This document shows, piece after piece, positions 47,317 through 61,655 of a stretch of 64,000 nt of DNA; position 1 is the first letter of the stretch, and every line of letters begins with the position of its first letter. A model generated the notes under the pieces. The model was given only the letters and a program-made list of their open reading frames with translations. It did not search any database and was not told the DNA's origin. This stretch comes from an uncultured Fidelibacterota bacterium. GTDB lineage: Bacteria; Fidelibacterota; Marinisomatia; Marinisomatales; UBA1611. Location: contig CAJWLO010000010.1 of the NCBI GenBank assembly GCA_913043235.1, forward strand, positions 1 through 64,000, written 5' to 3'. Both the position numbers and the translations under genes were made by a program.

Positions 47317-48666
47317 ATGGCCAAATTAAAAACCAAAATCGTATTTCTTTGTTCTTCCTGTGGCGATGATTTCCCCAAATGGAATGGGCAGTGTCCATCC
47401 TGCAAGGAATGGGGAACCCTTTCTGAATTCAAAGCATCTTCTAAAAAAAGTAAAGGTAAAACTGAAATCCGGGATTCAAAATTTCTTCCAGATGTATTAA
47501 GTGGTGCACCTGTTGAGCGAATTTCAACAGGGATAAGGGAAGCAGACCGAGTATTAGGAGGTGGATTTCTTTCTGGGGCACTTATTTTATTAGGGGGGAG
47601 TCCTGGAGTTGGGAAGTCAACATTGGCGCTACATATTTGCTCTGGTATTGACCGTAAAGTATTATATATCTCAGCAGAAGAAAGTGAAGAACAAGTTGCA
47701 TTACGGGCCCGTCGGCTCAAAATAAATTCGAAATATCTCCATCTATCCGGTGAAAATGAAGTTGAAGGTATTATTACCCATATTGAGCGAATATCACCAG
47801 AGCTAGTTGTTGTTGATTCCATCCAGACAGTAATGAATACTGGTTTAGATTCCTTGCCAGGATCTCCTAGTCAGATTCGTGATTGTGGCCAGCGTCTTTT
47901 AGAAGTTTCAAAACAAAGAAATGTCACAATCTTGATTGTGGGTCATGTGACAAAGGATGGAACAATCGCTGGACCGAAAATGTTGGAACATATGGTAGAT
48001 ACCGTTTTGTACATGGATGGTGACGATCGGTATGATCATCGCATTTTAAGATCAGCAAAAAACCGATTTGGCGCCACCCACGAAGTTGGCATTTTTAATA
48101 TGGATTCGGAAGGCTTAAAAGAAGTAACAAATCCTTCCGAAATGTTTTTAGCAGAACGAAGTATAAACATACCTGGCACCAGTGTTTATCCATCTTTAGA
48201 AGGGACTCGTCCCATTCTAGTGGAGGTGCAAGTATTAGTTTCCGATGCCAATTTTGGAACACCACAGCGAAACCTAAATGGATTCGATTATAAACGATTG
48301 GGAATGCTAATCGCTGTTCTAGAAAAAAGGATAGGATTAGCTATGGGGACAAAAGATGTCTTTGTTAATTTGGTCGGTGGACTTAGAGTAAATGATCCCG
48401 CAGCAGATCTTTCTATTATTTGTTCTACCGCTTCTAGTACTATGGATAATCCTATTGAAGAAAATACTGTGCTTTTGGGCGAAGTTGGATTGGCAGGAGA
48501 AGTTCGATCTATTAGCCGATTAGAGCATCGATTAACAGAAGCTAAAACCCTTGGGTTTAAAACAGCTATCGTCCCGGCTGCAAGCATGAATGATAAAGTC
48601 AAAAAGATTGAGATTGATCTTCATCCTGTTAAATTTGTGAAAGATGCCTTTAAAATATTATTCTAG
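47317..48666 (+). CDS. radA: DNA repair protein RadA
   Basis: A 449-residue RecA-like protein that speeds branch migration in recombinational repair. I start it at ATG 47317, giving the expected opening; the frame is open upstream to 47170 but inside the previous gene. A four-cysteine zinc finger (C12, C15, C26, C29) is followed by Walker A GGSPGVGKST near 93-102, the RadA-specific KNRFG motif near 247-251, and a C-terminal Lon-like domain (KDVFVNLVGGLRVNDPAADL). Normal length. An imperfect palindrome (CCCGTGGTCACGGG, 47284-47297) and GGGAGG lie just upstream. Confidence 0.96.
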   Translation: MAKLKTKIVFLCSSCGDDFPKWNGQCPSCKEWGTLSEFKASSKKSKGKTEIRDSKFLPDVLSGAPVERISTGIREADRVLGGGFLSGALILLGGSPGVGKSTLALHICSGIDRKVLYISAEESEEQVALRARRLKINSKYLHLSGENEVEGIITHIERISPELVVVDSIQTVMNTGLDSLPGSPSQIRDCGQRLLEVSKQRNVTILIVGHVTKDGTIAGPKMLEHMVDTVLYMDGDDRYDHRILRSAKNRFGATHEVGIFNMDSEGLKEVTNPSEMFLAERSINIPGTSVYPSLEGTRPILVEVQVLVSDANFGTPQRNLNGFDYKRLGMLIAVLEKRIGLAMGTKDVFVNLVGGLRVNDPAADLSIICSTASSTMDNPIEENTVLLGEVGLAGEVRSISRLEHRLTEAKTLGFKTAIVPAASMNDKVKKIEIDLHPVKFVKDAFKILF

Positions 48667-48739: not shown

Positions 48740-49873
48740 ATGAAATTTACTATACATCAAAAAGACTCCAATACAGCTTCTCGCGTGGGTATTATAGAAA
48801 CAGATCATGGTCGAATCGATACGCCTGCCTTCATGCCAGTCGGAACGGTAGGGGCTGTAAAAACCATGACGCCACATGATTTGGAAGAGATTGATTCGCA
48901 AATCATATTGGGGAATGCTTATCATCTGTATTTGCGACCTGGAATTGACGTAATCAATAAAGTTGGTGGGCTTCACAAATTTATTAGTTGGGAAAGACCA
49001 ATTTTAACAGATAGTGGAGGATTTCAGGTTTTTTCTCTGGCAAAATTGAATAAAATCAATGATGATGGTGTAGAGTTTCAATCGCATTTGGATGGTAGTC
49101 GACATATGTTTTCACCGGAATTTTCTATGGAAATTCAACGAAATCTGGGTGCAGATATCATTATGGCTTTTGATGAATGTCCACCGGGTGATGCCGATGA
49201 TAAAAGAATCAAAGAAGCCGTGGTAAGAACATCCCAATGGATGAAAATGTGTAATAACTGGCTAAAAGAAAATCCTGAAATATATAATTACAAACAAACA
49301 GTATTTCCCATTATTCAGGGATCAGTTAGCCATGAATTGCGGAAACTTAGTGCTGATGAATTAATTCCATTTTCGACCTGTGGCATTGCCATAGGCGGAC
49401 TGGCAGTAGGCGAAGAAAAAAATGCCATGTTTGATACTTTGGAGTTTTGTGACACAATTTTACCCAAAGATCAGCCCCGGTATTTAATGGGCGTGGGCAA
49501 GCCTTCCGACCTATTGCAGGCGGTGCGTCGCGGTGTGGATATGTTCGACTGTGTTATGCCTACACGGAATGGCAGAAATGGACACGTTTTTACATCTGGA
49601 GGTGTTATAAACATCAAAAATAAAAAATATAAAAAAGATCCATCACCCATTGATCCAGATAGCTCACACATCTGGGGACATACATTTTCAAAATCGTATT
49701 TACGACACTTGCTTAATATTAATGAGATTTTAGGACTTAGAATAGCTTCAACCTTGAATTTATTTTTTTATCTTGATCTAATGGCATCCATTCGAGAAAA
49801 GATTTCTGATGGCAGTTTTGATATTTGGTCAAAATCCTTAATAAGTGATATGAAAAATATGAAAGGAATGTAA
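48740..49873 (+). CDS. tgt: tRNA-guanine transglycosylase lacking the zinc-site residues
   Basis: A 377-residue enzyme that swaps guanine 34 for preQ1 in tRNAs for Asp, Asn, His and Tyr. DSGGFQVFSL carries the general-acid/base Asp91, MAFDECPPGD the base-recognition Asp145, GGLAVGEE the substrate loop, and FDCVMPTRNGR the nucleophile Asp270. The C-terminal part aligns with known enzymes (PDSSHIWGHTFSKSYLRHL), but the three zinc cysteines are replaced by Ser308, His310 and Gly313, and the later histidine by Leu339. So the fold is kept while the structural metal site is lost. It overlaps the Nudix gene by one base. Activity is likely, though not certain. Confidence 0.9.
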   Translation: MKFTIHQKDSNTASRVGIIETDHGRIDTPAFMPVGTVGAVKTMTPHDLEEIDSQIILGNAYHLYLRPGIDVINKVGGLHKFISWERPILTDSGGFQVFSLAKLNKINDDGVEFQSHLDGSRHMFSPEFSMEIQRNLGADIIMAFDECPPGDADDKRIKEAVVRTSQWMKMCNNWLKENPEIYNYKQTVFPIIQGSVSHELRKLSADELIPFSTCGIAIGGLAVGEEKNAMFDTLEFCDTILPKDQPRYLMGVGKPSDLLQAVRRGVDMFDCVMPTRNGRNGHVFTSGGVINIKNKKYKKDPSPIDPDSSHIWGHTFSKSYLRHLLNINEILGLRIASTLNLFFYLDLMASIREKISDGSFDIWSKSLISDMKNMKGM

Positions 49874-50352
49874 TGACAGATATTTTAGTTAGAGTAATTG
49901 ATACCTATGTATTTCGCCATACGGAGAAAGGACCTAGATTTTTATTATTAAAACGATCCAAAACCAAAATGTATGAACATCTTTGGCAAGGCGTTGCAGG
50001 AAAAATTAAAAAAGGGGAGAAGGCTTGGGAAGCAGCCATTCGTGAACTAAAAGAAGAGACAGGACTAGAACCAGTAAACATGTTTGTGGCAGATCATGTA
50101 AGTAGATTTTATGAAATCTATGGGAACAGAGTTAATCTTGTCCCTGTTTTTGGTGTTCAAGTGGGCCAGGAAGAAGTAACATTGTCTGAAGAACATTGTG
50201 AATATTGTTGGGTGGATTTAGAAACGGCCAAGGATACACTTGTTTGGAAAGGGCAAAAAGAAGGTATCGCTGCTGTGGCCAATATGCTGAATTCAAAAGA
50301 TGACCGAATCAAATGGTCAGAAGTTGATTTAAATACAAAAGGTGCCAAGTAA
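49873..50352 (+). CDS. Nudix hydrolase
   Basis: A 159-residue hydrolase with a perfect Nudix box at residues 43-65: Gly43, Glu49, REL at 57-59, EE at 61-62, Gly64-Leu65. It opens LVRVIDTYVFR and has LLKRSKTKMYEHLWQGVAGKI, resembling dihydroneopterin triphosphate pyrophosphatases (folate) and related NTP-cleaning enzymes. The substrate is not certain. The start shares one base with the tgt stop, so it is coupled to tgt; queuosine and folate both begin from GTP-derived pterins, which fits a pterin substrate only loosely. Confidence 0.85.
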   Translation: MTDILVRVIDTYVFRHTEKGPRFLLLKRSKTKMYEHLWQGVAGKIKKGEKAWEAAIRELKEETGLEPVNMFVADHVSRFYEIYGNRVNLVPVFGVQVGQEEVTLSEEHCEYCWVDLETAKDTLVWKGQKEGIAAVANMLNSKDDRIKWSEVDLNTKGAK

Positions 50353-61544: not shown

Positions 61545-61617
61545 TCCGGAGTAGCTCAGTTGGTAGAGCAGGTGGCTGTTAACCACTTTGTCGGGGGTTC
61601 GAGTCCCTCCTCCGGAG
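61545..61617 (+). tRNA. tRNA-Asn (GTT anticodon)
   Basis: A complete cloverleaf of 73 bases. The acceptor TCCGGAG pairs with CTCCGGA, followed by discriminator G. The D arm is GCTC-AGTTGGTA-GAGC, the anticodon arm GGTGG-CTGTTAA-CCACT places GTT at positions 34-36, and the T arm is GGGGG-TTCGAGT-CCCTC. The 3' CCA is not encoded (CTT follows), so the Cca enzyme at 17,119 must add it. With G34 it is also a substrate of the Tgt at 48,740. Confidence 0.97.
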
Positions 61618-61655
61618 CTTTCCCTCTTCCAGATCGCTAGGTTTCAAATTATTAT

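Follow-up and report, generated by a model that had tools for sequence, protein, structure and literature searches.

The window (the whole stretch of DNA that was analysed, 64,000 nucleotides long) carries a tgt gene that encodes a tRNA-guanine(34) transglycosylase (Tgt), flanked by radA and a NUDIX hydrolase gene, and a more distant tRNA-Asn gene (Table 1). The tgt reading frame is open and complete. Its product passes the NCBIfam equivalog model TIGR00430 with 471 bits, against a curated cut-off of 306.75, and matches the Pfam TGT model PF01702 with 479.6 bits. The last base of the tgt stop codon is also the first base of the NUDIX gene. The start of radA at 47317 was chosen within an ORF that reaches to 47170. 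Families are referred to below by the labels f1 to f20 used in the analysis, f1 being the family of the query, and the order radA-tgt-nudix was kept in nearly all f1 genomes.

Table 1. Features of the tgt locus, with positions in the window.
Feature	Position	Strand	Basis
radA, upstream of tgt, own zinc ribbon retained	47317..48666	+	ORF
tgt, tRNA-guanine(34) transglycosylase, 377 aa, zinc-less form	48740..49873	+	ORF; TIGR00430; PF01702
Codon of catalytic Asp91 (Zymomonas Asp102)	49010..49012	+	Alignment, conservation
Codon of catalytic nucleophile Asp270 (Zymomonas Asp280)	49547..49549	+	Alignment, conservation
Codons 308-313, former CxCxxC zinc loop, now SSHIWG	49661..49678	+	Alignments: Zymomonas TGT, >200 homologues
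Codon of Lys318; Arg in 40/47 zinc-type, Lys in 46/61 zinc-less Tgt	49691..49693	+	Column comparison
Codon of Ile335; Leu in 41/47 zinc-type, Ile in 51/61 zinc-less Tgt	49742..49744	+	Column comparison
Codon 339, former zinc-ligand His (Zymomonas His349), now Leu	49754..49756	+	Alignments
NUDIX hydrolase gene, start codon overlaps tgt stop	49873..50352	+	ORF, context
tRNA-Asn, anticodon GUU, substrate type of Tgt	61545..61618	+	Within window

The gene is present in single copy. No second, canonical tgt was found in the genome of origin (2.9 Mb, 83% complete), which contains one TGT-family gene, or in the genomes of the family, where a Tgt match was obtained in 28 of 33 f1 genomes and was single in each. 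These 28 genomes reach a completeness of 96%, and one of them has its single Tgt split over two contigs. They include all seven f1 genomes with at least 90% completeness and low contamination.

The zinc-binding residues of TGT are highly conserved, and the C-terminal zinc-binding domain is part of the dimer interface (PMC4425180). One article states that the activity of E. coli TGT depends on zinc (PMC9508795, citing Chong 1995), and the zinc site is kept in human QTRT1 (PMC6165067). In a HMMER alignment of the query to the Zymomonas structures, the ligands Cys318, Cys320, Cys323 and His349 were paired with Ser308, His310, Gly313 and Leu339. Both segments were aligned without gaps ('DSSHIWGHTF' in the query versus 'ECHCAVCQKF/W' in Zymomonas, and 'STLNLFFY' versus 'TEHNIAFY'), which is the basis of the residue correspondence, and the same ligand columns were recovered in MAFFT alignments of 82 to more than 200 homologues. 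The catalytic residues Asp91 and Asp270 were invariant among 86 sequences, and the TDSGG and GGLAVGE loops and Arg276/Arg279 were invariant or almost invariant in the alignment. An initial annotation of this DNA had described exactly this combination, with all four zinc ligands replaced and the catalytic aspartates and base-recognition loop intact, and the alignments agreed with it on both points. Val223 in the GGLAVGE loop is the residue of preQ1-using bacterial enzymes, and we take Tyr320 and His323 to be the counterparts of the Zymomonas dimer-interface residues Tyr330 and His333.

When alignment columns were compared between 47 zinc-type and 61 zinc-less Tgt, no shifted Cys ligands were found near the former site of the query. 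Its strictly conserved Cys147 and Cys271 lie away from the site, and zinc-type Tgt conserve them to the same degree. The initial annotation had left a choice between a fold without zinc and the use of other ligands, naming His310 and His314. We consider it very unlikely that this Tgt still binds zinc or another metal through altered ligands that include these two residues. His310 occurs in 22 of 26 f1 sequences, but the rest have Ile, Val or Asn at this position, and sister families have Ser or Ile. His314 is confined to this one f1 sequence, and the column comparison revealed no other clade-specific conserved Cys or His around the former site. The first half of that choice, the zinc-free fold, is the part that found support, in agreement with the lineage-wide loss, purifying selection, predicted fold and recurrent losses described below.

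Alignment with relatives, as suggested in the initial annotation, demonstrated that the loss is lineage-wide. The ligands were absent from all 26 f1 Tgt sequences that cover the site, and chance or sequencing error is therefore excluded. Among sampled members of the same order, f3–f8 and f10–f14 retained Cys-Cys-Cys-His (CCCH), and the Tgt of f2, f9 and f15 was without all four ligands. Elsewhere in the class, f20 retained the zinc site, and in f16–f19 the Cys residues were gone and the His was mostly retained, again in sampled members. The sampled Tgt of the other classes of the phylum, which is probably Neomarinimicrobiota, retained the site, except that one genus has an additional copy of the Bacteroidota type. 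Most of the phylum families sampled other than f1 had the CCCH set. One zinc-type Tgt of the same order (G027:C186:974-2051; L168, L170) is broken into two reading frames and contains an internal TGA, reflecting a frameshift or an assembly error.

The query lacks the CCCH set that serves as a criterion of bacterial Tgt. We do not treat the missing zinc site as disqualifying, because the family models do not demand it and the ligands are also absent from numerous Tgt that occur in single copy in two phyla.

Selection on the gene was estimated by comparison with a congener. The values were dN 0.111 and dS 1.345 for the whole gene (dN/dS approximately 0.08) and dN 0.100 and dS 0.879 for residues 297–346, the former zinc region (dN/dS approximately 0.11). 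These results indicate that tgt is under strong purifying selection, the former zinc region included. The genome also encodes queA and queG, which the initial annotation had named as genes to look for, together with queF, and the three genes are common in f1. This genomic evidence, with the tRNA-Asn(GUU) of the window, indicates that Tgt works in the queuosine pathway. A tgt that is decaying or repurposed, in a lineage that no longer makes queuosine, would fit the disappearance of four ligands from a site described as needed for activity (PMC9508795). Such a fate is highly improbable, however, for a gene with a dN/dS of this order and invariant catalytic residues, whose zinc-less form is fixed across f1 in single copy and with queF, queA and queG kept.

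The AlphaFold model of the query Tgt (86 sequences) had a mean pLDDT of 93, with values of 97–98 over the former zinc region. The prediction around the former site, another check put forward in the initial annotation, yielded a normal TGT fold. The model is a TIM-barrel of the TGT type with a TM-score of 0.94 to 1ozm/1pud, and its helices 311–315, 318–326 and 330–356 are those of a zinc-type relative modelled alike; both models scored approximately 0.94 against Zymomonas TGT. Because AlphaFold is blind to metals and favours the fold typical of the family, this result speaks for compatibility, not for stability. No solved zinc-less Tgt was found among the PDB entries whose ligands were inspected, namely the best match to a Bacteroidota query (10fb) and the Zymomonas entries, all of which were of the zinc type.

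Besides the ligands, the columns that differed most between zinc-type and zinc-less Tgt were 335, 312 and 318, all near the ligand positions in sequence. Column 312 had Thr, Leu or Ala in the zinc-type and Val, Phe, Trp or Met in the zinc-less Tgt; the residues at 318 and 335 are given in Table 1. The direction of the changes at 335, 312 and 318 was consistent in independent pairs, and no significance is claimed for these recurring substitutions because just four such pairs are well supported. The substitutions suggest that hydrophobic repacking is apparently the physical replacement of zinc.

The zinc-less condition was not confined to this lineage. All 80 query-similar Bacteroidota loci (L003–L082) were without the CCC ligand set, in a sample that consists of the loci closest to the query and is thus biased towards similarity. 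A second Bacteroidota sample is biased in the opposite direction, since the Pfam model supplied its first 30 loci as top hits; in it, 32 of 49 were without the zinc set and 17 were CCCH. A tree of 108 Tgt from which the ligand columns had been removed required at least seven state changes, a count in which gains and losses are not distinguished. The zinc-less Tgt of the phylum fell into three supported clades, f1/f2/f15 (100/97), f9 (100/100) and f16–f19 (100/98). A single ancestral loss for all of them was rejected, with an AU p of 0.012 for the one-clade constraint, and one clade and one loss for f1/f2/f15 and f9 together was compatible with the data (AU p 0.60). When the zinc site is taken as ancestral, these sequences indicate that it was lost two or more times within the phylum and at least once more among Bacteroidota.

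The best matches to the query among named genomes were Bacteroidota, which are also without the Cys ligands, and a horizontal acquisition of the zinc-less Tgt from that phylum was considered. We regard it as extremely improbable. On the tree, the query Tgt branches with zinc-type sisters within its own phylum and apart from Bacteroidota (branch support 100), a placement that speaks against the origin suggested by the matches. Bacteroidota Tgt, for example those of Phocaeicola, Pedobacter and Prevotella, resemble the query in the absence of the three zinc Cys and in Lys318 and Ile335. They differ from it in having lost the site separately and in ligand 4, which is mostly His or Gln in Bacteroidota versus Leu in f1.

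Two Tgt matches were present in most genomes of g83, a genus of the same phylum. In the genome examined (G230), one Tgt was CCCH and the other was of the Bacteroidota type with GSDH, which grouped with Bacteroidota on the tree; the copies are labelled L211 (G230:C177, L316:9023-10153) and L212 (G230:C53). Given the number of genomes that carry two, horizontal transfer would be a likelier source of the extra Tgt than contamination. Among Tgt on viral contigs, four of the five that cover the site were CCCH. The three zinc Cys were absent (GTGH) from the viral-contig Tgt L322 (IMGVR_UViG_3300032255_000145).

Taken together, the results establish the zinc-less Tgt as a genuine variant of a familiar enzyme, one that is shared throughout the lineage and has arisen repeatedly. 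Because the same kind of loss arose several times in evolution, Tgt apparently folds and works without zinc. From the comparisons and the structural model, we infer that the query is very probably a working, zinc-independent Tgt with a repacked former metal site. Such an enzyme would exchange guanine 34 of tRNAs with GUN anticodons for preQ1 by the usual two-aspartate mechanism, and its C-terminal subdomain would hold together with no zinc ion. Ser/His/Gly and Leu have taken the place of the CxCxxC loop and the distal His, and the hydrophobic side chains of Trp312, Leu339 and Ile335 would repack the former site, with Lys at 318, while Tyr320 and His323 have been retained. A literature search that reached few subscription papers found no report of a zinc-less Tgt. 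Curated databases may already make the zinc annotation of Tgt conditional.

Compared with the Tgt of Zymomonas mobilis and E. coli (TIGR00430), the query has the same length, fold (TM-score 0.94, approximately 47% identity), Asp pair, base-recognition loops and Val223. It differs in the replaced zinc ligands and in Lys318, Ile335 and Trp312, where Arg, Leu and a residue of small or medium size, respectively, are usual. The eukaryotic queuine transglycosylase QTRT1/QTRT2 shares the TGT superfamily fold but is a heterodimer with the zinc site kept in both subunits (PMC6165067, PMC4425180). The dispensability of a structural zinc within a conserved family has parallels in bacterial GluRS (PMC4381286) and in zinc-free L31, L36 and S14, which are different proteins.

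If the zinc-independent reading is correct, zinc would be dispensable in Tgt, the family would offer a natural experiment on a zinc site replaced by packing, and the connection drawn between zinc limitation and tRNA queuosine would have to be revised. Culturable Bacteroidota with a related loss make the claim directly testable. More tentatively, an active zinc-independent class of Tgt may have arisen repeatedly with recurring substitutions (Leu to Ile at 335, Arg to Lys at 318 and a bulky hydrophobic residue at 312), in some lineages via zinc sparing (L31, S14, L36), in which case the textbook zinc dependence would hold only for part of the family.

Zinc sparing is compatible with a zinc-independent Tgt. 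That the site was lost in such a trend, along with those of ribosomal proteins, and not by neutral drift, is possible but somewhat doubtful. Thirty genomes of the phylum were compared. L31 was of the zinc type in all 13 genomes with a zinc-type Tgt, as were L36 and S14 wherever they were found (12 genomes each). Zinc-free L31 and/or S14 occurred in 14 of the 17 genomes with a zinc-less Tgt (L31 in 13/17, S14 in 9/16), and in the three f9 genomes L31, S14 and L36 were all without zinc ligands. By family, the proportions were 4/6 for zinc-less versus 0/7 for zinc-type Tgt (exact p approximately 0.02, uncorrected for shared ancestry). However, animal-gut Bacteroidota, which are not obviously zinc-poor, are also without the site, no other zinc loss was seen in f15 and f19, and the independent loss events are few. 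The genome of the query is itself mixed: its L31 is the zinc-free form, but S14 and L36 are of the zinc type and the neighbouring radA has kept its zinc ribbon. The FolE of two f1 members likewise resembles the usual zinc enzyme. These results hint weakly at zinc sparing in which Tgt was one of the earliest sites to go, and neutral loss is also possible.

The longer, zinc-free form of L31 was observed in f1, f9 and f16 and the zinc form in the other phylum families sampled (L299–L301, L303, L306–L308, L310–L315). The f9 genomes, which measure 0.7–1 Mb, combine the zinc-less Tgt with zinc-free L31, S14 and L36 (L331–L333, L361–L363).
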